Positions 31,157 through 62,878 of a stretch of 64,000 nt of DNA are shown one piece after another. The first letter of the stretch is position 1; every line of letters begins with the position of its first letter. Both the position numbers and the translations under genes were made by a program. The stretch comes from Cohaesibacter haloalkalitolerans (GTDB taxonomy: Bacteria > Pseudomonadota > Alphaproteobacteria > Rhizobiales > Cohaesibacteraceae), in the NCBI RefSeq assembly GCF_003574655.1, contig NZ_QNUM01000009.1, positions 1-64,000 on the forward strand, given 5' to 3'. Below the pieces are notes generated by a model. The model had not been told where the DNA came from, searched no databases, and was given only the letters and a program-made list of their open reading frames with translations.

Positions 31157-32371
31157 CTAGTACCAGCGGCCAAGCCAAAGCTTGTCACTGTCGATTTTGG
31201 TGATGGTGCCGGTGAAGGCCGCCGCCGCTGTCGTGATTGCTGCATTGCCATTGGTGCAAATCTGGAAGCCATCGGCAAAGCGCACATATTCACCGTTGGC
31301 GTTGCTGCCGCGCTCGATAATGGCCCCTGTTGGAACGCCCGACGATTGCGCCACCGTTCCGATGATGTTTCTTTGACCGTATATGAGCTGCCAGCTTTCC
31401 CAACCTGCCGAGCGATACCAGCGCTCGAACACCTTGGCATCATTGGCAACCGTCGACCAAACGATTTGCCGGACGCGGGATGAACTGTATTTTTCCATCA
31501 TCAGCATGCCGAATTTTGAACCAGCCGTTCCGGCAAGACCAGCAGGCAAGCTGGCGTTGTTCGCCGTCGATCCACCCAACACGCCCCAAAGGCCGCAAGG
31601 GGTGTTCGGGTCGTCAACATCAGCGAGCGGGGGCACACTTCCCGCTTCCCCAAGCCCGAATGCACCAACGGTCAAAAGCCTTCCGCTTGTCGCATCACTG
31701 GCGGATGATTGCACCGCCGCGCCGGTGAGAAGCCCGGTTGCCCGAGCGATCTTGAGCGCCGTGGTCCAGCTGGAACCATCAGCGCTCACCTTGAATGAAA
31801 AGTCATCTTCCCCGGCACACCCCATTTCAGCACGGCCTGACCAGTTGGTCTGAAACAACAGGCTGTTGGTGTCGGCAACCGCCGCCTTGTTGACCTTGAT
31901 CTGATGGCCATTGCCAGCATGGTTGAAAAGACTGGCAGCAGAGGCAAGGGCTAGGCGGTTTGTCGTGTCCGCCGTGGCGTTGATCCCGATCTTGTCGAAT
32001 GTTCCCCCCGCCAGAGCCGCGCCGAGGCTTGTTGAAATGAAATCCGACCAGCCCGCCCCGTCATAGCAAAGCAGCTTGCCTTCATCGACAAGCCACGCCA
32101 GCCATCCGGCCAGCGGCTGAAACCGCATCCAGGCCCCGTCAAGATAGGCGGCAATGCTGCCCTCCCATCCGGTCCAGGCCCCGCTTGCCCCATCGGCGAC
32201 AATGTAGCGAGTGCCCTCTTCCGGTTCTGCCGGTGGCGCTGACAAATCCCGATCAGCAACGGACAGCTGGACCAGTGCGTCCAGCATCCGCAGGGCTTCG
32301 TTATGGGTGATATGCTTCTGGTTCTGATTGCTCGCAATATAAGGCAACCGCAAAAGCGCTGTTTCAGTCAT
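31157..32371 (-). CDS. DUF2793 phage tail fibre or tail-tip protein
   Basis: This 404-residue protein opens with the DUF2793 pattern (LPYIASNQNQKHITHNEAL, then a Trp-rich YIVADGASGAWTGWEG). The domain is found at the tail tip of alphaproteobacterial phages and gene transfer agents. The C-terminal part is Gly, Ala and Asn rich and probably contacts the host surface. The ribosome site is covered by a hairpin, as for the endolysin. Confidence 0.8.
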   Translation of the reverse strand: MTETALLRLPYIASNQNQKHITHNEALRMLDALVQLSVADRDLSAPPAEPEEGTRYIVADGASGAWTGWEGSIAAYLDGAWMRFQPLAGWLAWLVDEGKLLCYDGAGWSDFISTSLGAALAGGTFDKIGINATADTTNRLALASAASLFNHAGNGHQIKVNKAAVADTNSLLFQTNWSGRAEMGCAGEDDFSFKVSADGSSWTTALKIARATGLLTGAAVQSSASDATSGRLLTVGAFGLGEAGSVPPLADVDDPNTPCGLWGVLGGSTANNASLPAGLAGTAGSKFGMLMMEKYSSSRVRQIVWSTVANDAKVFERWYRSAGWESWQLIYGQRNIIGTVAQSSGVPTGAIIERGSNANGEYVRFADGFQICTNGNAAITTAAAAFTGTITKIDSDKLWLGRWY

Positions 32372-34617: not shown

Positions 34618-37600
34618 TCAGCTACCCGAGGAGTTTTTCTTCCATTCCGCCTCAAGCGCATCGCCGCGCCCGAGCGTTTGGCTGATTTGATAAATCGCCA
34701 CGTCATAGCCAGCCGTTGCGCTGCCGAGATCGGCGAGGCGTTCTGCTGCGCTGTAACTGGCTTGTGGTGCACTGGTCGTGATGGTGCGCACAACTGCACC
34801 GCCGCTGATGATATCGACCTCATAAGCCTCCTGCTCTTCACCCAGCGGCACTTGATAGAGATCCCAGCTATCACCATCGAGCCGCGTGCGCCTTATCCAT
34901 GTGATTGTGTGATTGTCCGCGTCATCGATCGACCACCGGGCATGAACCGGCGCATAGGGCTTGAGCGCCCGCCCGGTGAAAGCGTGCTGCTCCGTCGTGA
35001 AGCGATCCGAGCCAACTGTTTCGCCTTCCGGCCCATAGCGCCAATAATAGTCCTTGCCGACATCTGACAGCGTCATGTCTGCCTGCGCGATCCCTTGCGC
35101 CAGATAGACGATAGCGGCCCCCGCCGCCACAGTGTCGAGCATGGCGCTTTCTGTGCCGAGCTGGCCACGCAACAGGGTGGAAAGGCGATAGCGGTTTGTG
35201 CCGATCAGCTCCACAGTCTGCGCCTGGATGATTTCCCATGTCCCTGCGCTGGTCTCGATGGCAAAGGCGTTGGCACCGGCCAGCAACTCGTCCTCTGTGA
35301 CCGACAGCAGCGAGCCGCTGAATATCTCGATATCAAGGCTATTCCCCCGGTCAAGGACATAAAGCGGCCCCTTGTCCAAAGCGGTCAACGTTTCGCCGAT
35401 GATGGCGGAATTGGATATTTCGATGTTGGTTTGCCAGTTGCTTTCTGTTGCTGAGCGCAGCACCAGCCCCGCCCCCGGCCAACGCTTGGCCGCAAGAGCC
35501 ACATAGCCCGCATTCGGGTCGTGATCGGGCTGCAGCAACGGCAGGTCCATAAACCGCGCCAGAATGCGCGTGAGGCTTCCAGTCGTTGAGGCCGCCCGAA
35601 TGCTCAAGGTGGCCCCGGAAACAGACAGGGCAGCATCGATAAAGCCGCTTGCTTCGCAGCTGCGCCCCTCCCCGTCCTTGACGTCCGTCAGGCGCATTTC
35701 CCTTGCGCCATTGTCTGTTGCCACCTCGATAACGTCCCCCGGTTCCAGAGCCAGCAGGGACGGCATGAGGGCAAATTTTCCGGTTTCCCGTGCCGCCCAG
35801 ACATCCTGCAATAGATAGTCGGCCACCGCGCTTGCCCTGTCTTCGTCCATCACGATTGCAAGCTGGCTTTCCGAAACACTGGTCGCACCGGTGAAATTGG
35901 CCCATGCGCTCACCGTGCCGGAATTATAGGCCTTGTTGGCGTTGAGGTATGTAATGCGCACCGCCCGTGCCAGCTCGCTTTCCTGCGCCCGCGTCAGGGT
36001 AACCAGCTCGCCCACCTTGTCGCCGTTGCCGTCCTGCAGGCTGCTCTTGTCAACTGCAGCGCAAAGCGGAATGGCCTTGCGCGAAACCGCCTTGATGATG
36101 CCGCCTGTTTCGATCAAGTCAAAGCCGAACGCCAGTTCCAGCGGTTGCCAGGCACTGCGCAAGCTCATGGTGCTATCGATCACATAGCCATCGCAGGCCC
36201 CGTAAGCAGCATCAAAATCATAAGTGGCAAAACCATATTCGTCCGAGATATGGCGCATCAGGTCCGGCATGTAGACCATGCCGACGCGGGAAGACAGCCA
36301 GTGCCCGAAGGCCCAGTTGTCCGCATCCGCCCATGTCGCCCCATCCAGCGGCCAGGAGGGAAAAGGCCGGGCGTCCCAACTCCAAACATGCACCCGATCC
36401 ATGTCGATCATCGCGCCGTCATAAAGGCTCGATGCCGGGTTGTTGGCCGCGTCGGCCCAATAGTCAATTGTCGCCTTCAGATGGCAATGCTGTTGCACGT
36501 CATCCCGCGCCCCGCTGGAGAAATAGGGCAAGGCGCTTTCGCTTGATTTCGGGTCAAAGAAAACATTCGGCTGGTTGCTGCCGAGATCCAGCGCAGGGCA
36601 TCCCAATTCGGTAAACCAGATAGGCTTGCTTTGTGGCGTCCAGCCGGTTGCCTCGCTGTCGCGCACCCCGCCCGGCCTGTTGTGGTGGCTATTGCTCCAC
36701 CAGCCCTTGAGGTCTTTTTGCCGGAAGATCCAGTCTTCCCCGTGCGCCCCGTCACTGATGGCCGTGCGCGTCTGCGCCACCCGCGCCGCATTGTCAGCAT
36801 AATAGAAGTCGTAATACTCGCCGCCCTCAATGTTGGCCTGAAGATAGTCGAGACTATAGGGCGTCACAAAGCCGCGTTCCTGATCATAATCAAGATGCTC
36901 CCTGCCCCGCCGCCAGTCACTGAGCGGGAAATAATTATCAATTCCAATGAAATCGATATTGGCGTCAGACCATAGCGGGTCCATGTTGAAAATCACATCG
37001 CCCGACCCGTCCCCCGGCCTGTGCGAGTGATATTCACTCCAGTCCGCCGCATAGCCGATCTTGACCGCAGCGCCAAGAATGGTGCGCACATCAGCAGCAA
37101 GTGTCTTGAGCCCCGTCACAAAGGGATAGCTGGTTGCGCTGTCGCGCACCGTGGTAAGGCCGACCATTTCCGAGCCAATGCAGATCGAAGCGACACCACC
37201 GGCAGCGCTCGCCAGTGTGGCGAGGTGCAACACGAACCGCCTGTACCCCCAATCCTCCGCACCCGCATAAGTAATTGTTTCATCTGAAATGGAAAAATCG
37301 GCAACAGACGCCGAACCGAGAAAGGCCCAGACCTGATCAGCCGCCGCGCTGGTCTGGTCCGGGCTATCCGCCATCCCCGGAGCCGGGTAACAGGTGATCC
37401 GCCCACGCCAAGGGAAAGCAGATTGTTCCTCCCCGCCCCAAGGGTCGGCAAGGCCATTGCCTTTGGGAATATCGCCCATGATGAACGGGTATAGCATTAC
37501 CTCATAGCCGCGATTCTTCAATTCGCCAATGGCATGAATGACAGATCGGTCTGAAGGCGTGCCCCCATAGACCGGATAGGCGTTGCCATTGTCATCGCTT

Positions 37601-38580
37601 AGCTGCGTAATCAGCAGGGCCGTGTCTCGCGTCAGGCCTGCAACCTGCCAGTTATAGGGCGAGGTTGGCTTGCTGGCCGTTTCCACCTTTGGCCGGATGC
37701 TGCAGGCACCACAGCGCAGGTCGTCAAAGAACCATGCCACGACCAGACAGACGCTTTTCACATTCGGCAAGGCACTGGCGAGTTGATCAAGAGAGACAGA
37801 CAGATCAGACGCGCCCTGCTTCTGGTGGACGTTTTCATAGTCTTCCGAGGTCACAGCCCCGCTGGATGAGAGCGTCTGCTTGAGCATGACATCCGGCTCA
37901 TATCCGAATTCTGTTGACCCCGGAATGAGATTGACGCCCATGATGGCAGTTTCCAACTGACGGTTTGGCGAGGGCCGGAAAATCTCGAAGGTAAATTGCG
38001 GAATGCGGTTGCCGTAGTCGGTCAGCTCCAGCCGGTCAAAGACGATATAGCAAAGCCCGCGATAGGCCGGGGCAAGCCCTTCCCCTTCGATGCTTTCAAT
38101 CAGACTGTCCGGCTCTTGGGTTTCGCTGCCGTCATAGAACCGGAAGTCGATTTTCGACATGTCAATTTCGGTGCCATCGGCAAAGATCCGGTTGAGATAG
38201 ACCCCCGGCCCCTCACAGATCCCAATCGCGAAATTGGCATAATAGGTGTAATTGGTCGTCTTGGCTGTCGCGCCACCGCCCTTGCCGCCCTGCTTGCTGG
38301 TGCTGGCGACCTCTTCAAGGGTCGTCGCCCAGATCACCTGCCCGCCAATCCGCACACGCCCATAGGCCCGGTTGATCGCGCTTCCCTCGGTCGAGCTGGT
38401 CACCTGCAGGCTGTCGAGCCTTGGCCCCGTTGTGTGGGTGTCCCGGCCCCCGGCCAAAAGCATGTTGTCGATGACAGCGCCGCCGAGCGCCCCGAGTGTC
38501 CCGCCGATCATCGCGCCCAGCGGCCCCAGCAAGGCCCCGCCGACCACACTTCCGACCTTGGACAAAACCAGCGTTGACAT
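34618..38580 (-). CDS. megatron-type baseplate multidomain protein (GTA TIM-barrel tail-tip protein)
   Basis: This 1,320-residue protein is the tail-tip hub of GTA-like phages. The N-terminal part has a hydrophobic glycine-rich stretch (GGALLGPLGAMIGGTLG). A TIM-barrel-like hydrolase domain follows (FIGIDNYFPLSDWR, IWFTELGCPALD). The last third is the tail-hub and fibronectin-like region. It probably cuts peptidoglycan and holds receptor-binding proteins. The start at 38580 has GAGG upstream and fits the NlpC gene's end. The length matches the Rhodobacter capsulatus GTA orfg15 product. Confidence 0.9.
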   Translation of the reverse strand: MSTLVLSKVGSVVGGALLGPLGAMIGGTLGALGGAVIDNMLLAGGRDTHTTGPRLDSLQVTSSTEGSAINRAYGRVRIGGQVIWATTLEEVASTSKQGGKGGGATAKTTNYTYYANFAIGICEGPGVYLNRIFADGTEIDMSKIDFRFYDGSETQEPDSLIESIEGEGLAPAYRGLCYIVFDRLELTDYGNRIPQFTFEIFRPSPNRQLETAIMGVNLIPGSTEFGYEPDVMLKQTLSSSGAVTSEDYENVHQKQGASDLSVSLDQLASALPNVKSVCLVVAWFFDDLRCGACSIRPKVETASKPTSPYNWQVAGLTRDTALLITQLSDDNGNAYPVYGGTPSDRSVIHAIGELKNRGYEVMLYPFIMGDIPKGNGLADPWGGEEQSAFPWRGRITCYPAPGMADSPDQTSAAADQVWAFLGSASVADFSISDETITYAGAEDWGYRRFVLHLATLASAAGGVASICIGSEMVGLTTVRDSATSYPFVTGLKTLAADVRTILGAAVKIGYAADWSEYHSHRPGDGSGDVIFNMDPLWSDANIDFIGIDNYFPLSDWRRGREHLDYDQERGFVTPYSLDYLQANIEGGEYYDFYYADNAARVAQTRTAISDGAHGEDWIFRQKDLKGWWSNSHHNRPGGVRDSEATGWTPQSKPIWFTELGCPALDLGSNQPNVFFDPKSSESALPYFSSGARDDVQQHCHLKATIDYWADAANNPASSLYDGAMIDMDRVHVWSWDARPFPSWPLDGATWADADNWAFGHWLSSRVGMVYMPDLMRHISDEYGFATYDFDAAYGACDGYVIDSTMSLRSAWQPLELAFGFDLIETGGIIKAVSRKAIPLCAAVDKSSLQDGNGDKVGELVTLTRAQESELARAVRITYLNANKAYNSGTVSAWANFTGATSVSESQLAIVMDEDRASAVADYLLQDVWAARETGKFALMPSLLALEPGDVIEVATDNGAREMRLTDVKDGEGRSCEASGFIDAALSVSGATLSIRAASTTGSLTRILARFMDLPLLQPDHDPNAGYVALAAKRWPGAGLVLRSATESNWQTNIEISNSAIIGETLTALDKGPLYVLDRGNSLDIEIFSGSLLSVTEDELLAGANAFAIETSAGTWEIIQAQTVELIGTNRYRLSTLLRGQLGTESAMLDTVAAGAAIVYLAQGIAQADMTLSDVGKDYYWRYGPEGETVGSDRFTTEQHAFTGRALKPYAPVHARWSIDDADNHTITWIRRTRLDGDSWDLYQVPLGEEQEAYEVDIISGGAVVRTITTSAPQASYSAAERLADLGSATAGYDVAIYQISQTLGRGDALEAEWKKNSSGS

Positions 38581-38582
38581 GC

Positions 38583-39023
38583 TCAGACCTCCAGATCGGG
38601 AAAGCGGAAAGCAGCGGCAATCATCCGCCGCCAGTGAGGGGAAAGGGTCACCTCGACCACACCACATTTTTCATAGGCGTGGATAAATCGCGTCTCACCG
38701 GTCAGGATGCCAAGGTGTTTGGCGCTCTTTGCCCCGCGCCATCGGATGGCAAACACATCCCCCGGCCCCATATCGGCAATCGCGATTTCCTGCATGTAGG
38801 TCCGACCGGCAACCAGCAGACTGTCTGCATTGCTGGCGTCTCCCCAATCGGGCGAATAGGCTGGAACTGGCCCGACCTCTGCCCCATAAAGCTCGCGCCA
38901 GACCCCGCGTATCAGCCCCAGACAATCGCAGCCTATACCCTTGTTGCTGGCCTGATGGTGATAAGGCGTGCCAAGCCAGCCCCGAGCGCTGGCAATGATC
39001 TGTTGCCGCTCAATACTGGTCAT
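38583..39023 (-). CDS. NlpC/P60-family tail-tip peptidase (TIGR02219)
   Basis: A 146-residue papain-fold peptidase with catalytic Cys in IGCDCLGL and His in KHLGIL. Phage forms sit at the tail tip and cut peptidoglycan stem peptides during DNA entry, as GTA orfg14 does. The start is set at MTSIERQ (39023), overlapping the previous gene by 14 bp. Confidence 0.88.
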   Translation of the reverse strand: MTSIERQQIIASARGWLGTPYHHQASNKGIGCDCLGLIRGVWRELYGAEVGPVPAYSPDWGDASNADSLLVAGRTYMQEIAIADMGPGDVFAIRWRGAKSAKHLGILTGETRFIHAYEKCGVVEVTLSPHWRRMIAAAFRFPDLEV

Positions 39024-39909
39024 AACGAATGGCCCCCGACAGGTCGTCATCATCCGGGCTTGGATAGGTCGTCACATAGTCGTTGCCCGGCATGTGCGGA
39101 CAGCCGCGAAAATTCACCCCGTTGGCGAATTTCTTGACGCATGTTGCAAACCGCTTGTCGCACCCGGCGACCAGATCCAGCGTATCCCCGATGGCAACCG
39201 CCTTGAGGAATGGCGACCAGATGCCAATCGTCACGAGGCCACTTGTCACCACGTGGCTTTGAAGCTGATAGGAAAGTCCGTTGTTTGCACCGCTGGTAAA
39301 GGTCAACGTGCCCCGGTTGAACCAACCGGCCCCGAAATCTTCCGCGCCGGATATCTGCAGCACCTGCCCGCCAGAATAGCCGGAAACGGTCACACTGGCC
39401 GAGAAGGCCGGGTCCGAGATATCGACCCCACAGCGTTCATCCCCCAGAACCGCATCGCAACCGGCCTGATAGACCCGGCCCTGCTTTTGCTGAAGCTCAG
39501 CCGCCAGCCCCCGAACCTCGGCGCTGAAATAGGTGTCCCCTCGCGTGATTTCGCCAAGGTTGCCCGCCCGCATCAGGACGCGTTGGTCAAGGTCCATCCA
39601 GTTGACCCGCCAGACCTCGACCCCGGCCCCGTCATAAAGCCCTGCCGATATATCCTCTTCCGTGATGAAATCCGCCGACAAGGCCCCGTCAACGTCGACA
39701 TTGTCAACCGACAGCCCAAGACTTGATTGCAGCTCTGTTGCGGTAAAGCCGCTGTCTGCCGAATAGGTGACACCATCAAAAACAACATCGGCATCATGAT
39801 CGGTAAAGCCATAGACCGCACCATCGCGCCTTATGAGTTTCCAGCACCAGCAGAGGGTCGTTGCCCCGCTGTCAAGGTGGGCTTGCATGCCATCGGGCAA
39901 AGTCTTCAT
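39010..39909 (-). CDS. DUF2163 / TIGR02218 tail-tip protein (GTA gp13-like)
   Basis: A 299-residue protein of the BR0599 type. It has the family's cysteine sets (QAGCDAVLGDERCGV and GCDKRFATCVKKF, then FRGCPHMPG), which in the GTA homologue bind an iron-sulfur cluster at the tail hub. The ATG overlaps the previous stop (ATGA). Confidence 0.9.
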   Translation of the reverse strand: MKTLPDGMQAHLDSGATTLCWCWKLIRRDGAVYGFTDHDADVVFDGVTYSADSGFTATELQSSLGLSVDNVDVDGALSADFITEEDISAGLYDGAGVEVWRVNWMDLDQRVLMRAGNLGEITRGDTYFSAEVRGLAAELQQKQGRVYQAGCDAVLGDERCGVDISDPAFSASVTVSGYSGGQVLQISGAEDFGAGWFNRGTLTFTSGANNGLSYQLQSHVVTSGLVTIGIWSPFLKAVAIGDTLDLVAGCDKRFATCVKKFANGVNFRGCPHMPGNDYVTTYPSPDDDDLSGAIRYDQY

Positions 39910-40535
39910 TGGATCAGCTCCACAATGGGAATGGAAGGCACCGAGATAAGCCGGTTGTTTTCCCAGGCAATCGAAAGGCTGTCGGTGTCAAAGCGCACCG
40001 GCACAAAAAATTCATAGCCAGCGGTCACCGCCGCGCCAGCAGCCGGCGCATTGACAAGGGTCACAAGCCCCGTTGCGTGATTGACCGTGTAGTCTGCCGC
40101 ATCGAGCGCCACGCCACCCACGGCCACAAGCACCGAGCCCGCTTTGGGCTTGCGGATTGTGCGCGTGTAGGGATTGGTGCTGCCGTAGATCTTGGTAAGC
40201 TGATAGCTGGCGGTCAGCCCGTCGCCGGTGCCGATCCTCTGGTCTGTTGCGGCGGGCGTTGCGAGGATGGCGCATGAGCGCAAGTCGAATGGATCGCAGA
40301 AACGGAAGCCGGAAAGCCGCCCGCGCACCTCTTCAAAGAAGGCAATCACCGTTTCGGCCTCCCAGATATCGCGGATACCGGTGCCGACATCCCAGGTGCG
40401 CCGTGAATTGGCCCATTGCTGATTGCGCTCTTCGGTGCCGGACCCGCTTTGCACGACCTGTGTCTTGCGTTGCGGTCCACCAGTCGCGCCAAGGCCGATG
40501 GCAACGGGAAATGTGATTTCAAGAAATGCCGCCAT
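39906..40535 (-). CDS. DUF2460 / TIGR02217 distal tail protein (GTA gp12-like)
   Basis: A 209-residue protein. The start MAAFLEITFPVAIGLG is typical, and the motif FRFCDPFD is central to the family. It forms the distal tail ring that joins tube and hub. GGGGG precedes the start at 40535. A longer frame from 40796 overlaps the tape measure and is not used. Confidence 0.9.
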   Translation of the reverse strand: MAAFLEITFPVAIGLGATGGPQRKTQVVQSGSGTEERNQQWANSRRTWDVGTGIRDIWEAETVIAFFEEVRGRLSGFRFCDPFDLRSCAILATPAATDQRIGTGDGLTASYQLTKIYGSTNPYTRTIRKPKAGSVLVAVGGVALDAADYTVNHATGLVTLVNAPAAGAAVTAGYEFFVPVRFDTDSLSIAWENNRLISVPSIPIVELIQ

Positions 40536-40545
40536 GTCCGGCCCC

Positions 40546-42522
40546 CTATTGATTGCGCCCGCCACGTGCCACAAGGCGCGCCATATTGGCGGCAATCTGG
40601 CCCTGAGACTGCTTGAAGCCCTGCACATCAGGCGTCGAAACATACCAATTGTGTGTGTCGCCCGCCCGGCTTGCATTGCCGCTGACCGAGCCGAAAGGCT
40701 GGTATGGCTCGATGCGCCCGGCCACGTTGGGCGAAAACAGTTCCGGCCCGTTCTCGTTGACCTGATAGAGATTGCCGGGCAACACGATGCCGCCACCTGC
40801 GCGGGCGCCGGTTACAAAGGAAGACAGATCAAGCGCAGCTCTGCTTGATGTGATCGACCCGGCCAGAGAGGTGAACAGCCCTGTGAGGGCACCGCCAGAA
40901 CTGCCGGTGAGCGCTGTCATGATGGACGCCATCGGCCCGGTGCCAAACAGCGCCGCTTGCGCCGCCGCATTGGCGATCTGCAGGGCAAAGGAGCGCATGG
41001 CATCCTCAGCCGAACTCGCGCCGCTGACGATATCGGTCAACATGTCGACACCAGACTGCCCGAGATATTCGAAATTCTGGGTCAGCTCTTGGGTCTGCAT
41101 TTGCATGGCTTTCGCCGTGCTGGCTGCTTCCTGCATGGCGAGGCGCTTTGCCTGCAGGCCATTGACCGCCGCTGCGATAGCCTGCCCCTGATCACTCTCA
41201 AGGTTCACACCGGCCTTTGCCAGAGCGTTGTAAAGCTCCTGCTCACCGGACGTCCGGCCAAGCTGCGCCGCTTCCTGCTCCAGTGCCAGAATGACTTCGT
41301 GCACCTTGTCGACCTGTTCTGTTCTTGTCTTCTTGTCGTCTCCCTTGTCAGGTTTGGTCGATGGTGACCCCGGTGCCGGTTTCGGGATCATTGGCGAGGC
41401 TGGCGGGATAAGGCCCATTTCGCGCTGTTTGGACTTGATATCAAGCCCGGCAACGCTGATGGCACCCCCGCCCAGATCATAATCGGCCCGTGCGATCAGC
41501 TCGGAATATTTCCTGATCTGGTCCTCAGCCTTTTTGACCTCTTCAACAAGCGAAGCCTCAAACGTGTTGCCCGTGCTGCCAGCATTGCGCCGCGATGTAT
41601 CGAGCGCCCCGCGCGCCTTTTCAAGCTGGTCCTTTGCTTCCCGATAGCGGTCAGCCAGCCGGAACACCGTGTCTACCTGTCCGCCTGCAGAGTCCCCCAG
41701 AACGCTATCGTCAAAACTGTTCTTGAGTTGGAGAAGTGCCGCCGTAACGGTCACAACTGCCCCCTTGACCTTGGTCCCGATGGTGGTTGAGAGGGTTTCA
41801 AATTCCTGATTGATCTGTTGGGCCTGTCTGGCGACAGTCTCGTCAAGCACAATCCCGAGCCGCCGCGCTTCTTCCCTTGCGTCTCTGAGCCCCTTTTGGC
41901 CGCGTTCGATCATCTGGACAAATTGTTCGCCACCCGTGCCGCCGAAGACCTCGTCAGCAATGCGAATTTGCGCCGCTTTGTCAAACTGTTGCAATCGTCC
42001 GATAATGTCGTCAAACAGCTTGTCCGGCTCCTTGAGCCGATTTTTCAGGTCATCAGCGGAATAGCCAAGCCGCTTGAATGCATCCGCACCACCGCCGCTA
42101 CCCGTCGTGATAAACTCGTCAGCTCGAAGCTGCAGCTCCTTGAGGCCATCGGTCAGCGCATCAATGGAAACATTGCTTTTGCGCGCAGCATAGTCCAGCT
42201 CCTGAAAGGCCTCAAAGCTCACCCCTGCCCGTTTGGCTTCCGTTGCAAGGTCCGCTACCTGTTCGGCTGAAGTCTTGGCAAGGGCAGCAATCCCCGCAAG
42301 GCCACCACCAACAGCAATACCGGCAAAGCCGCCGACAGCCGTCACGGCCCCCTTTGCGGCTTTGCCAAGGCTTCCAAGGCTCGATGTGAATTTGACAACG
42401 CTCTTTTCACTTTTGCCGAGGCTGGTCTCGGTGTTCTTCTCGATTTTCTTCAGCGCCTTGTTGAACTGGGTGGTGTTCGCCTCAATTCGCAAGACCAGCT
42501 TTTCAAGATCCTTCTCAGCCAT
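40546..42522 (-). CDS. tail tape measure protein
   Basis: A 658-residue, mostly helical protein. It has a glycine- and alanine-rich hydrophobic patch (VGGFAGIAVGGGLAGIAALA, about residues 61-80) and long coiled-coil-like stretches. A further Gly-Ala-rich region appears near the end. It sets tail length. It follows the two chaperone frames, as is usual, and its ATG overlaps the -1 frame's TGA by 8 bp. Confidence 0.88.
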   Translation of the reverse strand: MAEKDLEKLVLRIEANTTQFNKALKKIEKNTETSLGKSEKSVVKFTSSLGSLGKAAKGAVTAVGGFAGIAVGGGLAGIAALAKTSAEQVADLATEAKRAGVSFEAFQELDYAARKSNVSIDALTDGLKELQLRADEFITTGSGGGADAFKRLGYSADDLKNRLKEPDKLFDDIIGRLQQFDKAAQIRIADEVFGGTGGEQFVQMIERGQKGLRDAREEARRLGIVLDETVARQAQQINQEFETLSTTIGTKVKGAVVTVTAALLQLKNSFDDSVLGDSAGGQVDTVFRLADRYREAKDQLEKARGALDTSRRNAGSTGNTFEASLVEEVKKAEDQIRKYSELIARADYDLGGGAISVAGLDIKSKQREMGLIPPASPMIPKPAPGSPSTKPDKGDDKKTRTEQVDKVHEVILALEQEAAQLGRTSGEQELYNALAKAGVNLESDQGQAIAAAVNGLQAKRLAMQEAASTAKAMQMQTQELTQNFEYLGQSGVDMLTDIVSGASSAEDAMRSFALQIANAAAQAALFGTGPMASIMTALTGSSGGALTGLFTSLAGSITSSRAALDLSSFVTGARAGGGIVLPGNLYQVNENGPELFSPNVAGRIEPYQPFGSVSGNASRAGDTHNWYVSTPDVQGFKQSQGQIAANMARLVARGGRNQ

Positions 42523-42733
42523 AGCGCGCCTTTAACTCTTCGTATCGGTCCCGCGACATGGTCGGCTTTTCCGGCTCTCCATATCGCTCGTTGAAGCCTG
42601 CAATTGCGTCGATATAATCGCGCAAGGTTGCCTGACTGAAGTCGCACGGCCCCCAGCCAAGGAAGGCAAAGGCAATCTGCCTTATGCGTCGCCAGGGGAT
42701 GCGGTCGCTTCCGTCTCCCCCGGCTGCTGTGGC
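42515..42733 (-). CDS. tail assembly chaperone frame reached by -1 frameshift (TIGR02216-like)
   Basis: This open frame has no in-frame ATG, GTG or TTG between the upstream TGA near 42828 and the body of the domain. It encodes a recognisable chaperone domain (IPWRRIRQIAFAFLGWGP, then FSQATLRDYIDAI) like rcc01693 of the GTA. It is in the -1 frame relative to the gene starting at 43044, which has GGGAAAG in the right phase. The extended product would be about 176 residues. This matches the G/GT arrangement of lambda. TTG at a late position is the only alternative start and would lose the domain. Confidence 0.75.
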   Translation of the reverse strand, partial: ATAAGGDGSDRIPWRRIRQIAFAFLGWGPCDFSQATLRDYIDAIAGFNERYGEPEKPTMSRDRYEELKARYG

Positions 42734-43044
42734 TTTCCCGGCTGTCGGCTCTTTTCCGGCATGCCCGCCGCCAAAGCCGCAATGACAGCGCCTTCGGCCT
42801 CTTCCGAGACCTTGCCAAACAGCATGCCATCAGCAGCGGCGCTGTTGCCCGAGGCACAAAGACACTTGAGCCCCGAATAGGTCAGACGCGGGTCATGCAC
42901 CGCCGCCATGAAATGCAACTGCCTTAGCCCGGTGATTTGCAGCTCAGCCATCAGAGCGGCCACCCGTGGCAAGGTCGCATGCAGCACAAAGCCCTTGCCA
43001 TCAAGTGTGACCGAGACTTCCCCGGTCAGTTCATTGACTTGCAT
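42682..43044 (-). CDS. GTA gp10-like tail chaperone (short form)
   Basis: A 120-residue protein starting MQVNELTGEVSVTLDGKGF, the pattern of GTA_gp10. It probably coats the tape measure during tail assembly. AGGGG lies before the ATG at 43044. Codons 103-104 (GGA AAG) form the slip site by which about 72 further residues can be added in the -1 frame. Confidence 0.82.
   Translation of the reverse strand: MQVNELTGEVSVTLDGKGFVLHATLPRVAALMAELQITGLRQLHFMAAVHDPRLTYSGLKCLCASGNSAAADGMLFGKVSEEAEGAVIAALAAGMPEKSRQPGKPQQPGETEATASPGDA
42733..42739 (-). promoter_or_regulatory. programmed -1 frameshift site GGGAAAG
   Basis: Read in the frame of the gp10-like gene the heptamer is G GGA AAG, so both tRNAs can re-pair one base back on GGG AAA. 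This is the slippery heptamer used by lambda genes G/T. The phase was checked from the start at 43044: position 42739 is the third base of codon 102. Confidence 0.72.
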
Positions 43045-43054
43045 GGTCCACCCC

Positions 43055-43480
43055 TTAAGCCGCAACCGCGAAGGCTGGCACGCTCTCCCAACCGAACTCA
43101 GCCGAGATTGCAAGGTCTTCATTGGTGTTGCCGGTAAAGGTAATTTTTACATAGGCCGGTCCGGTAAAGCTGCCATAGGCTGGCACAATGACCTTGAACT
43201 TGAGGGTGACCCCGGTGCGCGCCGCGTCAAAAATGGCTTTGGTGCGGGTGTTCAGTTCGGCGATACCGGAGCCGGAAAAGCTCAGATCGATATTGCCAGC
43301 CCGCTTTGTGACGCTGGCGGGCTTTGTCCGGTCGCCGTCGCATTCAGGTACGACCCGGTCGACCATTTCCGGCCCCATGGAAAAGTCCGTTGACGTGATC
43401 CCGCAAAAGTCGACATAGGTGCCGACATTCTCCGGGTCTTCAACCTGAATATACAGCTCTTGGCCAAGATGCTTTGTCAT
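43055..43480 (-). CDS. major tail tube protein
   Basis: A 141-residue beta-rich protein (ELYIQVEDPENVG, then SFSGSGIAELN and VIVPAYGSF) of the TP901/GTA major tail family. It builds the tail tube. GAGG lies 7 bp before the ATG at 43480. The start overlaps the previous stop as ATGA. Confidence 0.85.
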   Translation of the reverse strand: MTKHLGQELYIQVEDPENVGTYVDFCGITSTDFSMGPEMVDRVVPECDGDRTKPASVTKRAGNIDLSFSGSGIAELNTRTKAIFDAARTGVTLKFKVIVPAYGSFTGPAYVKITFTGNTNEDLAISAEFGWESVPAFAVAA

Positions 43481-43902
43481 GTGCAAGCCTCATAGAGTTT
43501 GATTTCAAAACGCATGTCGCAAAAATAGACCCGGTTTTCAGGTCCGTTGATATCTTCCCCGCGCCAGATAACGCGCATGCTCGCCCCATCGGCCAGCGTG
43601 AAAAGCTGTTTGTGCAGCGCCGCCCGGATCTTGGCGGCAATCGCCATGGCTTCCGCCTTGCCCCTGTCGCGGCTGTGAACCTCCAGCATCTGGAAAACCA
43701 CTTCGCCAAGCTGGTTGCCCACGTCATTTTCATCCCCGGCATAGCTGCCCAGAATGCAAAAGGGATAAACCTGCCCGACATGCCCCGGATTGGCCTTTGA
43801 CGGACTTTCCGGCAGAAAGTCATAAATCCGCCCGTCACAGATCGCTGCAGCCTTCAGGGTGCTGACCAGCATCTCTTGCGCCTTGGTAAAGTCGAGCGCC
43901 AT
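43477..43902 (-). CDS. DUF3168 tail completion protein
   Basis: A 141-residue protein (MALDFTKAQEMLVSTLKA, then DGRIYDFLP) of the DUF3168 / gp17-like tail terminator family. It caps the tail tube where it meets the head. The start at 43902 follows GGGGGAACC. Confidence 0.82.
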   Translation of the reverse strand: MALDFTKAQEMLVSTLKAAAICDGRIYDFLPESPSKANPGHVGQVYPFCILGSYAGDENDVGNQLGEVVFQMLEVHSRDRGKAEAMAIAAKIRAALHKQLFTLADGASMRVIWRGEDINGPENRVYFCDMRFEIKLYEACT

Positions 43903-55985: not shown

Positions 55986-56203
55986 TCCAGCTCGCCTTTC
56001 CTGAATGTGTGAACCTCAGTGAACAGCCGCACGGCATCGTCACCAAACAGCCTCACAGTGCCCAGGTGAGCCGAAAACACACTGCCAAGGTCAACCAGTG
56101 TCCGGGCGTCCAAAACCTCTTGGCAGGCATCCAGAAACGCCGCCTCGGTGACAACCCCGATCCGGTTGGCCCGCTGCACAAGCCCCGCGTTGTAGCTCTT
56201 CAT
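55970..56203 (-). CDS. small phage protein of unknown function
   Basis: A 77-residue soluble, helical protein (LDACQEVLDARTLVDLGSVF). The ATG overlaps the previous stop (ATGA), which supports a real gene. Not recognised. Confidence 0.6.
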   Translation of the reverse strand: MKSYNAGLVQRANRIGVVTEAAFLDACQEVLDARTLVDLGSVFSAHLGTVRLFGDDAVRLFTEVHTFRKGELECAMQ

Positions 56204-56463
56204 GCCGACGCCCTCGCGGCTCTTTGCTCTCTCAAGGCTCTATGGGCTTCTGAGGCGGCTTGTTCGGTCTTGGCTTGGTGTTCGCTGAGGAGGTAGAGCA
56301 GACCGTGCAGCATCTGGCTTTCGCGGCCCGTAAAGGGCGTTTCATTGGCAACGAACAGCATCGCGTCAATCAGCGTGCGTTCGGCCTCCAGCGCAAGGTC
56401 TATCTGGTCTAGGGAATGAGACAGAGCGCAAGCGCGCCTCTGCCTTGAGGAATGGCAAGTCAT
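56200..56463 (-). CDS. small helical phage protein
   Basis: An 87-residue helical protein (DQIDLALEAERTLIDAMLF, LLYLLSEHQAKTEQAASEA). The ATG at 56463 has AGAGGC 7 bp upstream. The open frame extends far upstream antisense to the next genes, but that part does not look like protein. Function unknown. Confidence 0.6.
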   Translation of the reverse strand: MTCHSSRQRRACALSHSLDQIDLALEAERTLIDAMLFVANETPFTGRESQMLHGLLYLLSEHQAKTEQAASEAHRALREQRAARASA

Positions 56464-56760
56464 CATAAAAGCCTCTAGCATGGCGTTTAAACACCACTCC
56501 CAGAAAGCTTCTGATGACCCACTGGTGAGCGGGAGGTTCAGAACCTGTGCTAGACAGGCGGGCTTATTCCCCTTTCGGGTATTGTATTCACCGCCCTCCC
56601 GCCCATAGGCGAGTGCGCACGCAATCCGGCCATTTTCCGGATTCCGAACACAAAAATACCGCTGACTTTCGGGTGCGGTGTCCGCTAGCAAAAGAGGTTC
56701 TGACGCCTCACCCTGAATCATGCTCTGTTTTGATAGGATTGTCAAATCGAGCGAAGCTAA

Positions 56761-56782
56761 GTACAACAATTTATAATTGTAC
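56761..56782 (+). promoter_or_regulatory. promoter within a dyad upstream of the membrane-protein pair
   Basis: GTACAA and TTGTAC form a dyad with a 10-bp centre that contains a perfect TATAAT (56772-56777). The next gene starts 36 bp further on. A bound repressor would cover the -10 element. Confidence 0.5.
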
Positions 56783-56817
56783 AAATTAGATTTTCTTTTG
56801 CCTCGGAAATTAGCAGA

Positions 56818-58260
56818 ATGAGCTTCGACACCCAAATAATCACCTTCATCGCCAAAATGAATGATGGAATATTGCGCTTCACAGGTGACATACTTGTAAG
56901 TCTTATAGAGAAGAGCAAGGGAGCAGAATATGTTGAGAGCTTTCCAAACCTTGAGCCGCCAACACCTATCACTGATTGGCAAAAAACTCCCAAGTTTCCA
57001 GCTTTCCTTGAAATTACAGGACGGCCATTTTACAAGCAATTTTCGAGTGCTGAAGAGCTTTTGGATTGGCTTGAAGGTTTCTCCAATAGAACAGCAAGTT
57101 TGAAAAGCCTTACAGATGATGGCCAATGGGGCCAACTTGTTGACCACGCAGCAAATTTTATCAACAAAGCTCGACTGGAGCTCAAGCAAAACTCTGGAAC
57201 GGAAGGATGCCGAAGCCTCGCCCAAATTATAAAAGATAACGGCATTATATTGCCAGACACTCTGGTTGGAAACTACGTTTTTGACCAGCGCATTCCAGCG
57301 ATTAAACGTTTGATTACCGTGGCTAATTTGTCGAGAATAGACTTCAGCAAAGCGAGCCAACATGGAGGGTGGCCCCATTCTCCGATAGATACTATCGAAG
57401 TGGCAAAGTCTGCTTTGCGGGAGAAGCTCACTAAAGTTAGCGGAAGCGAAATTTCCACATTGATCGGACAAGTGACCGTTGAACTGGCTTCGAACGATTT
57501 TGACCGAAACGAGGCGAACATTTATTATAATGCAGATCTGGCCGAAGCAAGAATTGCTGCTATTACAGCAATTCAACGTGCTGAAAACAAATTGAAGCTT
57601 CGCCCAGCAAACCAAAGCTGGCAAACTAACGCAAGAAACAATGCATTCATGGCTTTGATCGGACTTTCTCCCTTCATCATCATTCCAATCATGCTTCTGT
57701 GGAATTGGGGAAGCATCGGTGAATTTTTGACCGGCTTGACACAATCGCCATTGGACAAAGTCGTCACTGCTAGCGATCAACTCTGGAAACTGTCCAACAT
57801 AACGGGGGCGCCTAAAGAACTCGCTCCTCAAATCGAACAAGCAGAAAGAACCCTTAGAGAAACCAAAGATGCTCTTCTGCTTCTCTCCAAAAGTGATAGC
57901 AGCAAGGAAATCTTCGCCACTCCTTTGCAGCATTACGCGATGATGCTCAAAGACGCCCCATGGACAAGTTTGGTGTTTGTTACTGTTCCTGCGCTGTTCT
58001 TTATGTGGATACTCAAGCACTTCAGCAGAATTTTCGTTCAGAGCTTCAACATTCGGAATGATGCAAACTACCGTGCAGCCTTGTCTGAAATTTATTCTTA
58101 CATTGATACCGACAACAAACTGACAGCAGATCAAAAGCGGATAGTCTTTGAAGCCATGTTCAAACCTCGAAACGTTACTCACAATGATGATGGCGTCCCC
58201 ATATCCGTGCTTGAAAGTGCGGTCAGCGCCGCAACTCAAGCGGCAAAACGAAGCAGCTAA
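56818..58260 (+). CDS. unknown two-helix membrane protein (cargo gene A)
   Basis: A 480-residue protein with a ~275-residue soluble N-terminal region, helices at about 277-296 and 382-400, and a coiled-coil-like loop between them (QIEQAERTLRETKDALLLLS). The conserved-looking C-terminal segment (RIVFEAMFKPRN, DDGVPISVLE) reminds me of DUF6161, from memory only. It is opposite to the phage genes around it and has its own promoter. It forms a pair with the next gene, 3 bp away. Function unknown; a phage-defence or exclusion pair is a fair hypothesis. Confidence 0.78.
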   Translation: MSFDTQIITFIAKMNDGILRFTGDILVSLIEKSKGAEYVESFPNLEPPTPITDWQKTPKFPAFLEITGRPFYKQFSSAEELLDWLEGFSNRTASLKSLTDDGQWGQLVDHAANFINKARLELKQNSGTEGCRSLAQIIKDNGIILPDTLVGNYVFDQRIPAIKRLITVANLSRIDFSKASQHGGWPHSPIDTIEVAKSALREKLTKVSGSEISTLIGQVTVELASNDFDRNEANIYYNADLAEARIAAITAIQRAENKLKLRPANQSWQTNARNNAFMALIGLSPFIIIPIMLLWNWGSIGEFLTGLTQSPLDKVVTASDQLWKLSNITGAPKELAPQIEQAERTLRETKDALLLLSKSDSSKEIFATPLQHYAMMLKDAPWTSLVFVTVPALFFMWILKHFSRIFVQSFNIRNDANYRAALSEIYSYIDTDNKLTADQKRIVFEAMFKPRNVTHNDDGVPISVLESAVSAATQAAKRSS

Positions 58261-58263
58261 CCT

Positions 58264-58965
58264 ATGTTCAAACCCTCCCACATATACGCCTTCAGCCTTG
58301 GCGCTGGCGTGACGCTCATCTTGATGCTGTTCATCGGCTATGGGCTGGATGGCAACATGGGCTTCTGCAAACTCGAAGCAGCAGGAAGCCCCACCGAAAC
58401 GCCGGTCACCTGCGCCCGAGAGTGGATTGGCGCTCTGAGCGGTTGGGTAGCTGCTATTGTTGCTTATCTTGTTGTCAGGCCTCAGCTTAAGATGATGCAG
58501 CTTCAGGCCGCGAGTGTAAGAGCCGCAGATCGACTTGAAACTATCGGGGTACAAATCGAGGTTATGGCGAATATCATTCAAAAAATCATGCGTATCGAAC
58601 CGCCAGTCTTTCAGATTGGAGTATCGCCACAAGAGGTTTTCAATGGGTATGGCTCGTACACTAACAAAGTGATTGATGTTTTTGAGGAACTCGATCCTAG
58701 CTCTACAAATGATTTCGTTCAGTATCTGCACATTCAGTTGGTCGGCCTGACCGCTAGCCAGGTTGAGGCTCTTGAGAAACTGGCTCTTGACGCTCAGCAA
58801 TGTACAGGAGACGAACTCAGTATTGTGAATGCCGCACTTAACAAAGCAGTACGGCACGCGAGAGGTGAAGTTGTTAGCGCATTCGAGTCGGTTTCTCTTC
58901 AACTCTGGAAACAGCGCTCCGATTTGCAGATGATTGCGGATAGGCCTTTGAATTTTGTTCTTTAG
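58264..58965 (+). CDS. unknown two-helix membrane protein (cargo gene B)
   Basis: A 233-residue protein with helices near residues 7-27 and 54-72, a periplasmic loop with two Cys (GFCKLEAAG, VTCAREW) that could pair, and a cytosolic helical tail. It follows cargo gene A by 3 bp, so the two are surely co-expressed. Not recognised. Confidence 0.75.
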   Translation: MFKPSHIYAFSLGAGVTLILMLFIGYGLDGNMGFCKLEAAGSPTETPVTCAREWIGALSGWVAAIVAYLVVRPQLKMMQLQAASVRAADRLETIGVQIEVMANIIQKIMRIEPPVFQIGVSPQEVFNGYGSYTNKVIDVFEELDPSSTNDFVQYLHIQLVGLTASQVEALEKLALDAQQCTGDELSIVNAALNKAVRHARGEVVSAFESVSLQLWKQRSDLQMIADRPLNFVL

Positions 58966-58970
58966 TTGCA

Positions 58971-59600
58971 TCACGCCACCCTCCTTGCCGCTTTATCGAT
59001 CTCTGGCCCCCATTGCACTGCCATCGCCTCAGCAACGCCAGTAAAGAAGCGCGACCGCTCTCTTGCCCTGTTTGGTCCCGGTGGCATGCGATGCACCCGC
59101 GCCACCCGCTCATTGACGATATCGGTCGGTTCAAGATTGGGCAGGTTGCGCAGCCAAAGGCAGGTGCGTTTGACCTCTCCATGGCCAAACTGCCAAGGCT
59201 GGATTGACTGGCTGAATTCCTGATAGTTCACGATCAGCTTTTTGGCGTGCTTGTGCATCACCGGGTTTTCAACGGCCACATGAGGGATAGGCGCGTTCCA
59301 CATGGCCGAGAACAGCGCCGCGCCCTCTTCCAGCTCCTGCCACATCTCAGCCAGCGTCTTGCCCTTTGGTGGCTTGCTCAGCCAGCGCACACCGCTATTG
59401 CAAAGCCGGGTGCAAGGCGGATGCGCCACGATCAGACAATCCCAACCATCGTGCAGCACGTCGCGCACATCGCCGGTAATGTGCCTATTCGGCCTGTTCT
59501 CGGTCGGCAACAGATCGCAAGACCAGGCATCATGACCCCGGTCTAGAAAGGCATTGCGCACAATCCCAGAATACTCGCAGGCAACAAGCACCTTCGCCAT
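58971..59600 (-). CDS. phage DNA cytosine methyltransferase-like protein
   Basis: A 209-residue protein with a Rossmann-type start (KVLVACEYSGIVRNAF), LIVAHPPCTRLCN in place of the usual PCQ loop, and VAVENPVMHKH like the ENV motif. It is short and seems to lack a clear target-recognition domain. It may modify phage DNA or be a diverged relative without activity. AGG lies upstream of the ATG at 59600. Confidence 0.72.
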   Translation of the reverse strand: MAKVLVACEYSGIVRNAFLDRGHDAWSCDLLPTENRPNRHITGDVRDVLHDGWDCLIVAHPPCTRLCNSGVRWLSKPPKGKTLAEMWQELEEGAALFSAMWNAPIPHVAVENPVMHKHAKKLIVNYQEFSQSIQPWQFGHGEVKRTCLWLRNLPNLEPTDIVNERVARVHRMPPGPNRARERSRFFTGVAEAMAVQWGPEIDKAARRVA

Positions 59601-61453: not shown

Positions 61454-62077
61454 TCACGCAATCACGGCAATGCGCTTGCGAAGGCTTTCGCCCTCGTCAG
61501 CCAAGGCCCAAAGGTCAAGAATGACGTTTTCCAGATTGTTGACTTCCGCTTCCAGCGCCGGGCTTGCCAGCCGCAAAACGGCCACCCGGTCCACCGCGTT
61601 GCGCACGCTGGCGTGATGCCGGTCAAACACCTGCCCCACCATCACAGTCGAGCACCGGCCAATCTCCACCGCCAGGTGCTGCGCTATGTGCCGCGCCCCG
61701 CTGATCTCGACCAGATCCCGCCGTTCAACGAAAATTTCGTCCGGCTTGAGAAAATACCGCCCGGCCACGGCATAGGCAGCAATCACGCAATAGGCAAAAT
61801 CGCGAAAGCGCTTGCCCTCTGGCAAGGCGGTGTGTTGCAGCGCCGCCGAGGCATATTCGCCCAGCGAGTAGGAGCGACGAAACCCAAGCTGGCGCTGGCA
61901 GCGCAAGGCGCACAGCCCGTAAGGGTCGGCCATGCAGGTGCGAGAAATGCCCGTTGTCCGGCTGCGCTTGCGCTTGAACTCATGCGGAACGGTGCCGAGC
62001 ATGTCCGGCCCGAACCCGAGTGCATCAAAGCTCAGTTGCAGCTCCAGCGGCTTTGTCTTCAGCGGCTCAATCGTCAT
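61454..62077 (-). CDS. DnaA domain IV-like early protein
   Basis: A 207-residue protein. Its middle and end resemble the DNA-binding domain IV of DnaA: ISGARHIAQHLAVEIG, then QVFDRHHASVRNAVDRV, which matches the DnaA GRDHTTV region. There is no ATPase domain. It may bind DnaA-box-like sites in host or phage DNA, or act as a transcription regulator. The start at 62077 overlaps the previous gene by 11 bp. Confidence 0.72.
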   Translation of the reverse strand: MTIEPLKTKPLELQLSFDALGFGPDMLGTVPHEFKRKRSRTTGISRTCMADPYGLCALRCQRQLGFRRSYSLGEYASAALQHTALPEGKRFRDFAYCVIAAYAVAGRYFLKPDEIFVERRDLVEISGARHIAQHLAVEIGRCSTVMVGQVFDRHHASVRNAVDRVAVLRLASPALEAEVNNLENVILDLWALADEGESLRKRIAVIA

Positions 62078-62621
62078 CCCCACCCCCGCATCCAGTGTCC
62101 CCGCTTCTTGCTTTTGCCACCCGCGCCTTGAAGCTTTCCTTCAGCGATAGCGCATCGATGTGCAGCCGGTCCGCCGCTTCAATCAGGTCAAATTTCAGGA
62201 TTTCCGAAACCGAGATTTGCGCGTCATCTTCAAGCGCCTTGCTCATGCCAGCCAGCAGCCCGGCAAAGTCCGAGCTGACCCCGGCCACAGCCCCAACCCC
62301 GGCAGGCACCGGATTGCAATCCGAACGCGGCACAGCCTGAAGCCCGGCCAGCTCCAGAAGCAGCCGCAGCACCCGCAAGGCTTCACCATCGGAAAAGACG
62401 ATCAGGTCCGCCAGCATGAACAGCGAAAGCGACTGTTGCCGCATGTCATCCTGACCGGAGCGGTGCCGCAAGCAGCGGTCAACGCTCTGCTTGCGATAGC
62501 CGGTCACCTCTGAAAGCGCATCGCTGCCAACGGTTTTCACGTCCAGCTTGCTTGCTGCCAGCAACTCGCCATAAATGTCGCGCCCGTTGAAATTCGCCAA
62601 AAGCCTGTGTTCGCCGCTCAT
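62067..62621 (-). CDS. early regulatory protein, possibly CII-like
   Basis: A 184-residue protein with an HTH-like start (LDVKTVGSDALSEVTGYRKQ), a helical middle (MLADLIVFSDGEALRVLRLL) and an acidic tail. Position second after the switch suits a CII-like activator or replication regulator; the family is not certain. ATGA overlap with the Cro-like gene. Confidence 0.6.
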   Translation of the reverse strand: MSGEHRLLANFNGRDIYGELLAASKLDVKTVGSDALSEVTGYRKQSVDRCLRHRSGQDDMRQQSLSLFMLADLIVFSDGEALRVLRLLLELAGLQAVPRSDCNPVPAGVGAVAGVSSDFAGLLAGMSKALEDDAQISVSEILKFDLIEAADRLHIDALSLKESFKARVAKARSGDTGCGGGDDD

Positions 62622-62878
62622 GAGCCATCCGCCGCGCTTGAAACATGGAAACGCACCTCACAGTCTTGCAGACTGTGAGCATCAACCGAGCGCCAGCGGA
62701 AAAGGGAAACAGGAACAGAAACGCCCTGCTCCAACCCCATAAGAAAGAGAGGAACGAACCAGGACGCGGGAAAGGAACCGATGACAACATTGTTGGAAAC
62801 GGCAGACGCACCAACGCCCAACCGAACCGCCACGGCCCCTGCCCCCAAATCACTCACAATGGATCTAGCTGTGCTCAT
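62618..62878 (-). CDS. Cro-like repressor
   Basis: An 86-residue protein with a compact HTH (SDLGAGAVAVRLGVGASAVS, then IGSFPASWF) as in Cro-type proteins. It is the first leftward early gene, starting next to two operators. The frame continues upstream without coding character, so the start is set at 62878. Confidence 0.7.
   Translation of the reverse strand: MSTARSIVSDLGAGAVAVRLGVGASAVSNNVVIGSFPASWFVPLFLMGLEQGVSVPVSLFRWRSVDAHSLQDCEVRFHVSSAADGS

Follow-up and report, generated by a model that had tools for sequence, protein, structure and literature searches.

A Putative Lambda G/GT-Type Frameshifted Tail Chaperone Pair in a Cohaesibacter Prophage and Its Likely Counterpart in Many Alphaproteobacterial Gene Transfer Agents

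The 64-kb stretch of Cohaesibacter haloalkalitolerans DNA analysed here (64,000 nucleotides, hereafter the window) carries a prophage with a tail tip of the gene transfer agent (GTA) type, and on its minus strand two overlapping reading frames lie between the major tail tube gene and the tape-measure gene. With a probability of about 0.9, we read this locus as a tail-assembly chaperone pair of the phage lambda G/GT type, in which the second domain would be reached by a -1 ribosomal frameshift. The reading rests on the phase of a slippery heptamer, the absence of a start codon for the second domain, codon-level conservation in seven of seven copies, the identity of the second domain and the gene order. 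Taken alone, the locus is a clean case of a well-known kind; the comparison with GTAs outweighs it in interest, because their genes g10 and g10.1 are currently treated as two genes. Judged from their sequences, many GTAs of the type found in Rhodobacter capsulatus (RcGTA) are likely to share the slip arrangement at the junction of gp10 and the Phage_TAC_6 (TAC_6) domain; other loci of this kind instead have an ATG or GTG start that overlaps the stop codon of gp10.

A -1 Frame without a Start Codon Lies behind an In-Phase Heptamer

The first open reading frame (ORF) of the locus contains GGGAAAG near its end (Table 1). The first base of this heptamer occupies codon position 3, giving the phase G GGA AAG; since it is the third base of a CCG codon, a ribosome reads CCG GGA AAG and could re-pair on GGG AAA. 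No other X XXY YYZ heptamer was found, in any phase, within the scanned stretch of the locus. The -1 frame behind it is open, has no ATG, GTG or TTG ahead of its domain, and ends 8 nt inside the tape-measure gene, whose ATG is at 42522..42520. An earlier note on this DNA had described the heptamer and its phase without naming the strand, and had claimed a -1 frame lacking a usable start, its end 8 bp into the tape-measure gene, a short product of 120 residues and a long one of about 176; each of these statements agreed with our reading, and the computed products are 120 aa and 176 aa (104 + 72).

The slip heptamer of lambda G/GT is likewise GGGAAAG. The window locus has the same heptamer in the same phase, a second domain without its own start, and a short and a long product (predicted here). 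It also has the gene order tube, chaperone, tape measure in common with lambda gpG/gpGT (PMC5009743). Unlike in lambda, the second domain is Phage_TAC_6 and the first is probably kin to GTA gp10, and the likeness drawn here is one of arrangement.

GGGAAAG is not rare by itself in the window, where it occurs 16 times against 10.6 expected. Across 11 structural ORFs, in-phase X XXY YYZ heptamers number 12 per 4638 codons, and GGA accounts for 25 of 434 glycine codons (P(GGA given Gly) 0.058). The weight of the heptamer comes from its position, phase and conservation rather than from its rarity.

If the slip takes place, the majority of ribosomes would make the 120-aa gp10-like chaperone and terminate at TAA, and a minority would move one base backward on G GGA AAG and make a 176-aa protein with a Phage_TAC_6-like C-terminus. 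In lambda, the G part binds the tape measure and the T part binds the tail tube (PMC5009743); by analogy, many copies of the short form would sit on the tape measure, with recruitment of tail-tube subunits falling to the long form. The slip itself, how often it happens and what each product does are inferred.

The Slip Site Is Conserved at the Codon Level in Seven Prophage Copies

The first domain was found in 7 of the 101 genomes searched, counting the window's own, all of the same genus. Two copies in the viral_contigs set and three more from a profile scan encode proteins identical to copies from genomes, and the comparison set consisted of seven distinct sequences including the window (L001 to L007). 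The first domains of the other six are 54-76% identical to that of the window. All seven carry GGGAAAG in slip phase, 43-61 nt ahead of the 0-frame stop, and in all seven the -1 frame is open without ATG, GTG or TTG before the domain. An alignment of related prophages had been proposed in the earlier note, and it bore out both the heptamer and the missing start; relatives with a downstream ATG and no heptamer, which that note regarded as evidence against a slip, were absent from the prophage copies (0/7) but common among the GTA loci described below.

The heptamer might be a by-product of a Pro-Gly-Lys motif and base composition, with the -1 domain a decayed or mis-sequenced second gene. Pro-Gly-Lys is indeed invariant in the 0-frame of the seven copies, and GGGAAAG is common in the window. 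However, only 7 of the 40 invariant columns other than Met and Trp use a single codon in all seven sequences, and these seven columns include the adjacent CCG, GGA and AAG of the slip site, whereas the other invariant glycine columns use GGG, GGC or GGT, plus one GGA. The -1 domain, moreover, is open in every copy and has 23 invariant columns. This explanation is thus scarcely credible; the heptamer is kept in relatives beyond what the protein demands.

Two observations weigh against a frameshift in the prophage. The first is that six of the seven copies (L001, L002, L003, L004, L005 and L007) have a -1 frame ATA overlapping the stop of the 0-frame, which a model of re-initiation could use: the TAC_6 domain would then be a separate protein begun at a non-AUG codon at or near the stop, with no frameshift. 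A reporter study suspected low initiation at AUA near a Shine-Dalgarno-like run (PMC4066793). Against such a start, L006 has TTA in place of ATA, and in L002 the stop and the ATA have moved together three codons downstream, where the ATA codes for a different residue. Shifted back by one base, a TAA or TAG stop always reads NTA; where a conserved Ile overlaps the stop, the codon must be ATA, whether or not it acts as a start. The IPW motif of the -1 domain (I12 and P13 invariant) lies upstream of the 0-frame stop; a protein begun at the stop or beyond it would have a shortened domain without this motif, and the whole domain needs a ribosome already in the -1 frame. Re-initiation also leaves the fixed rare GGA codon and the phase of the heptamer unexplained. 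We consider an ATA start at the stop very unlikely, given L006, the shift in L002, the dual coding and the loss of IPW.

The second observation concerns RNA structure. Folding of the 65 nt behind the heptamer in the seven copies showed no conserved downstream structure; the folding energy was low in the window copy alone (z -4.1 against mononucleotide shuffles), with the other six between +0.1 and -2.0. A candidate stimulatory stem, GGGGA/UCCCC, is visible in some copies and absent from L005 and L006, and we do not claim it. With these points included, the phase, the missing start, the conservation in seven of seven copies and the identity of the -1 domain support the lambda-type slip proposed in the earlier note.

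The Two Domains Resemble Those of Gene Transfer Agents

The second domain was tested against PF09550 (Phage_TAC_6); "TIGR02216-like" is a label of the earlier note only. The window's -1 domain matched at 18.1-19.5 bits (E 0.0037 for the score of 18.1), below the Pfam cut-off of 23.4, and PF09550 matched all seven prophage copies at E <= 1, the best at E 6.7e-6. When the -1 domain was compared by hhalign with 15 GTA TAC_6 domains, the result was 96.7% with E 3.3e-10.

For the first domain, no significant Pfam match was obtained in any of the seven copies. Comparison by hhalign with 12 GTA gp10 proteins, a family that we take to be Phage_TAC_11 (PF11836), gave 75.8% and E 2.3e-5 over only 45 columns. 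The first domain is therefore likely, with moderate support from these profiles, to be related to GTA gp10; the name "gp10-like" given to it earlier holds by hhalign over this short alignment and not by Pfam. Predicted structures of the two domains (mean predicted local distance difference test scores 62.7 and 73.9) gave nothing at E <= 0.001 in a Foldseek search of the PDB. Profile searches of PDB sequences gave no match with the first domain and a single unrelated match (E 0.18) with GTA gp10. No conclusion rests on the structure models.

Most GTA Loci without a Start Codon Carry an In-Phase Heptamer

Overlapping sets of alphaproteobacterial genomes were searched with PF09550, which matched 37/289, 44/385, 34/96, 31/40, 1/4, 126/198, 12/61 and 5/6 genomes per set, and 209 loci (L010-L218) were read. 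The survey left out 25 places of one set, 24 at E 4.6e-10 or weaker (one being the prophage copy L002) and one strong match near a contig end; some weaker places of the other searches also lay outside the 209. With gp10 absent in six (L011, L035, L058, L067, L072 and L133), 203 loci had an upstream gp10 by a custom profile.

The TAC_6 frame relative to gp10 was -1 in 185 of the 203, +1 in 12 and the same in 6. An ATGA overlap also yields -1, so this bias alone proves nothing. A tape-measure gene of the RcGTA type lay downstream in 174/203 by a custom profile. As a check, 10 loci were picked and seven proteins scored; L064 and L116 were left out because a different ORF had been selected in them, and L026 because its ORF was unconvincing. 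NCBIfam RcGTA_tape matched all seven downstream ORFs, with E of at most 7.3e-46 for six and 3e-10 for the seventh, at 40-206 bits, all under the 220-bit cut-off.

The loci were of two types. The first has an ATG or GTG start for TAC_6 that overlaps the stop codon of gp10. The second lacks an ATG or GTG ahead of the domain and has a slippery heptamer in slip phase, and its gp10 often reaches 13-40 nt into the domain. The counts cover the 185 loci with TAC_6 in the -1 frame; "no start" means no ATG or GTG, TTG was tallied separately, and heptamers were counted in one fixed interval. The results showed an in-phase heptamer in 100 of the 116 no-start loci, compared with 6 and 9 in phases 0 and 1, and in 30 of their 34 family groups, compared with 5 and 7 in the other phases. 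Among start-bearing loci the corresponding figures were 13/69, 5 and 4, and several of the 13 had only a distant ATG or GTG. Codon shuffling led us to expect an in-phase heptamer in 28 (18-41) no-start and 8 (1-18) start-bearing loci. The difference between the two types had a Fisher p of 3e-20, without correction for kinship.

An earlier counting interval, tied to the end of the gp10 profile, had given 80/116 and 11/69; it overlooked about 20 loci from a single family, as well as three GGGAAAG in L026. These three stand in phase in the gp10 tail of L026, at distances of 76, 64 and 40 nt from the stop codon that follows.

Two replicates partially overlapping with the survey, each on the best 80 matches, gave similar contrasts: 37/42 no-start versus 4/29 start-bearing loci in genome_contigs, and 41/52 versus 7/23 in viral_contigs. 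One of these 160 loci (L238) lacked a gp10/TAC_6 pair, and 13 of the remaining 159 were outside the -1 frame. After deduplication, the 310 loci among the matches listed had a heptamer in 168/198 no-start and 24/112 start-bearing cases.

Finer sorting of the 203 loci gave 109 with a slip site, 54 with an overlapping start, 8 with TTGA, 18 in other frames, 10 with none of these and 4 with both; the class of 109 includes a few doubtful rows (e.g., family f225, with a poly-A far upstream).

In nine loci, a TTG overlaps the gp10 stop in the absence of an X XXY YYZ heptamer (L107, L108, L112, L160, L179, L217, L239, L240 and L292), and seven of the nine read CCCTTGA. Either weak re-initiation at TTG or a P-site slip before the stop might operate there.

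Three Heptamer Classes Occur in GTA Loci

The GTA heptamers are G GGA AAG, C CCU UUN and A AAC CCY, and they are lineage-specific. G GGA AAG often lies immediately 5' of the gp10 stop, and the two abut in each of the five loci examined from one family and in three of four from another. C CCU UUN mostly stands at the start of a PF.W motif, and A AAC CCY is mostly found 7-28 nt upstream of the stop of gp10. The last base of A AAC CCN was U in 30/33 and C in 3/33, never A or G, and CCU made up 0/17 proline codons in the gp10 bodies of these loci; the next codon of the -1 frame may contribute to the U bias. At FxW motifs, CCC precedes the Phe codon in 54/62 cases inside gp10 and in 14/82 outside.

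The motifs most prone to shift in E. coli include G_GGA_AAG; UUN and AAN in the A site outperform CCN and GGN there, and all-purine or all-pyrimidine motifs are generally better shifters (PMC4066793). By these rules two of the heptamer classes fit, and A AAC CCY is unusual.

Among named genomes, Hyphomicrobium sp. CS1BSMeth3 has CCCTTTC, and Bosea sp. 117, Methylocystis rosea and Shinella sp. PSBB067 have AAACCCT. Ochrobactrum teleogrylli and Nitratireductor have AAACCCT plus a TTG overlapping the stop. Three Ancylobacter have CCCTTTG and/or GGGCCCT, one of them also with an overlapping TTG, and a fourth has a GTG overlap beside CCCTTTG and/or GGGCCCT. An ATG or GTG overlap without a heptamer was found in Parvibaculum (four of four named loci), Nitrobacter winogradskyi, Afipia and Paracoccus ferrooxidans; in the last, a member of the Rhodobacterales, the overlap is ATGA and the TAC_6 start was read by eye. 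For the five named-record loci, TAC_6 was located by pattern in two, and L390, L391 and L393 were read by eye.

A separate RcGTA-type cluster occurs in the same genome as the window prophage (L022, contig C20, about 41913-42086). At the gp10/TAC_6 junction of this cluster an ATG or GTG start is lacking, and the heptamer is A AAC CCC, compared with G GGA AAG in the prophage.

Slip Sites and Overlapping Starts Probably Replace Each Other in GTAs

The earlier note had suggested that a slip links two domains that are usually annotated as separate genes in the related GTA; the comparison upholds this link and extends it beyond that one GTA. We think it reasonably probable, on these sequence patterns, that programmed frameshifting of the tail chaperone is an ancient trait, widespread among alphaproteobacterial GTAs, that had not been recognised before. 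It would use three heptamer classes, of which A AAC CCY would not be predicted to work efficiently on the E. coli evidence, and would repeatedly have been swapped with a start-stop overlap, so that selection on gp10/TAC_6 stoichiometry would have persisted in elements whose particles carry host DNA.

Several results count against this proposal. Heptamers are missing from 16 of the 116 no-start loci, some of which have a TTG overlapping the stop. TTT is preferred at FxW both inside gp10 (48/62) and outside it (62/82); TTT alone is therefore not diagnostic, whereas the preceding CCC is, and part of the C CCU UUN class could be protein-driven by the PF.W motif. In E. coli, A_AAC_CCA was one of three motifs that never rose above threshold (PMC4066793). 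Tree-based paired tests of start against heptamer went in the expected direction but stayed far from significance: on supported branches there were 9, 7 and 5 independent pairs in trees of 185, 110 and 68 rows, respectively, and the median p was 0.125, 0.25 and 0.5. The minimum numbers of mode changes, which rest partly on unsupported branches, were 22 and 14 on FastTree trees, and 17 (start) and 18 (heptamer) on a quick IQ-TREE tree.

For the GTA loci alone, TAC_6 might always be translated from a start overlapping the gp10 stop (ATG, GTG or TTG), the heptamers being due to chance or to the protein. Overlapping starts by themselves account for 54 of the 203 loci and TTGA for eight more, some heptamer loci have an ATG or GTG at a conserved Met inside the domain, and the tree tests fell short of significance. 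However, many heptamer loci have no ATG, GTG or TTG before or near the start of the domain (e.g., L044, L045, L047, L049, L053, L056, L063, L064 and L068), the heptamers of no-start loci are concentrated in the slip phase, and G GGA AAG abuts the gp10 stop in the two families described above. A start-only explanation thus appears improbable, and the alternation of slip sites with overlapping starts remains the reading that we prefer.

Comparison with Reported Systems

In RcGTA, g10 and g10.1/g10.5 are called "tail chaperone 1 and 2" (PMC11409702), and g10.1 is also named in PMC9765227; there they are treated as two genes, as the earlier note had said of the related GTA. The window shares with RcGTA a homologous TAC_6 in the -1 domain, a gp10-like first domain (moderately supported), the gene order and a GTA-type tail tip; it differs in that g10 and g10.1 are treated as two genes, and R. 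capsulatus was compared by its published description only.

A -1 frameshift is annotated in the tail chaperone/assembly genes of the Caulobacter phages phiCbK (gp93/gp94) and Colossus (PMC3556154) and of the R. capsulatus phages RcSaxon, RcCronus and RcRhea (PMC4882933). The heptamers of phiCbK-like phages, AAAAAAC and GGGAAAC, are unlike that of the window. Both groups are free phages rather than chromosomal GTAs, and they are likened here by description and not by domain homology. A +1 frameshift site has also been proposed for a hydrolase of Wolbachia. The literature searched, which was mostly without subscription papers and was available in part, yielded no account of frameshifting at GTA g10/g10.1 (PMC8601537, PMC9765227, PMC10299305, PMC9022992, PMC11409702, PMC3556154, PMC8718954, PMC4882933, PMC10127595, PMC10783043 and PMC7296036).

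The g10.1 gene is short, and in two related phage records the downstream coding sequence is annotated from an ATG 44 and 68 nt past the end of the gp10 coding sequence, in both cases 18 nt inside the TAC_6 domain. If many GTAs use a frameshift, the N-terminus of TAC_6 and the fused form would have been mis-annotated so far. Selection that preserves so small a site in order to make two chaperones in a constant proportion would be independent evidence that GTAs are maintained as working makers of particles, not just decaying prophages. The natural swap between slip site and start-stop overlap would then offer a ready system for asking whether tail assembly needs the fusion or the ratio.

The Element Surrounding the Chaperone Locus

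Table 1. Chaperone locus and neighbouring tail genes of the prophage, in window coordinates.
Feature	Position	Strand	Evidence
Short tail-assembly chaperone ORF, gp10-like, counterpart of lambda gpG, 120 aa	42682..43044	-	ATG 43044, TAA 42684-42682
Slippery heptamer G GGA AAG; 0-frame codons GGA AAG	42733..42739	-	Sequence reading
Open -1 frame; part after the slip is a 72-aa Phage_TAC_6-like (T-like) domain	42515..42826	-	TGA 42517-42515
Predicted 176-aa fusion after a -1 slip (104 + 72 aa)	42515..43044	-	Computed from sequence
Tape-measure gene, 658 aa	40546..42522	-	phrog_10574 E 7e-129; RcGTA_tape domain E 2e-8
Major tail tube gene (Phage_tail_2), directly upstream of the chaperone	43055..43486	-	PF06199 E 4.5e-9; phrog_1407
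GTA-type tail-tip module, downstream: TIGR02217, TIGR02218, TIGR02219 (NlpC/P60), GTA megatron	34618..40796	-	Profile matches

The GTA megatron match in the tail tip reached 1692 bits, and profile matches identified an HK97-type head module nearby (portal, protease and capsid, plus terminase). The window's tape measure scored 34 bits against NCBIfam RcGTA_tape, below the cut-off of 220, and is much longer than the short RcGTA type (about 220 aa). We class the element as a prophage with a GTA-type tail tip and not as a GTA. No integrase match was found among the 10 window ORFs scanned, and no fuller integrase search was made.

Past the distal end of the prophage tail genes lies a DUF2793 protein (PF10983, E 1e-34; 31157-32371, minus strand). 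Elsewhere in the window, a 924-aa ORF at 56200-58974 (minus strand) had no Pfam match at E <= 0.001, and a DnaA C-terminal-like protein is encoded at 61454-62083. A tRNA-Cys at 62624-62703 (minus strand), on the terminase side of the element, is a possible attachment site.

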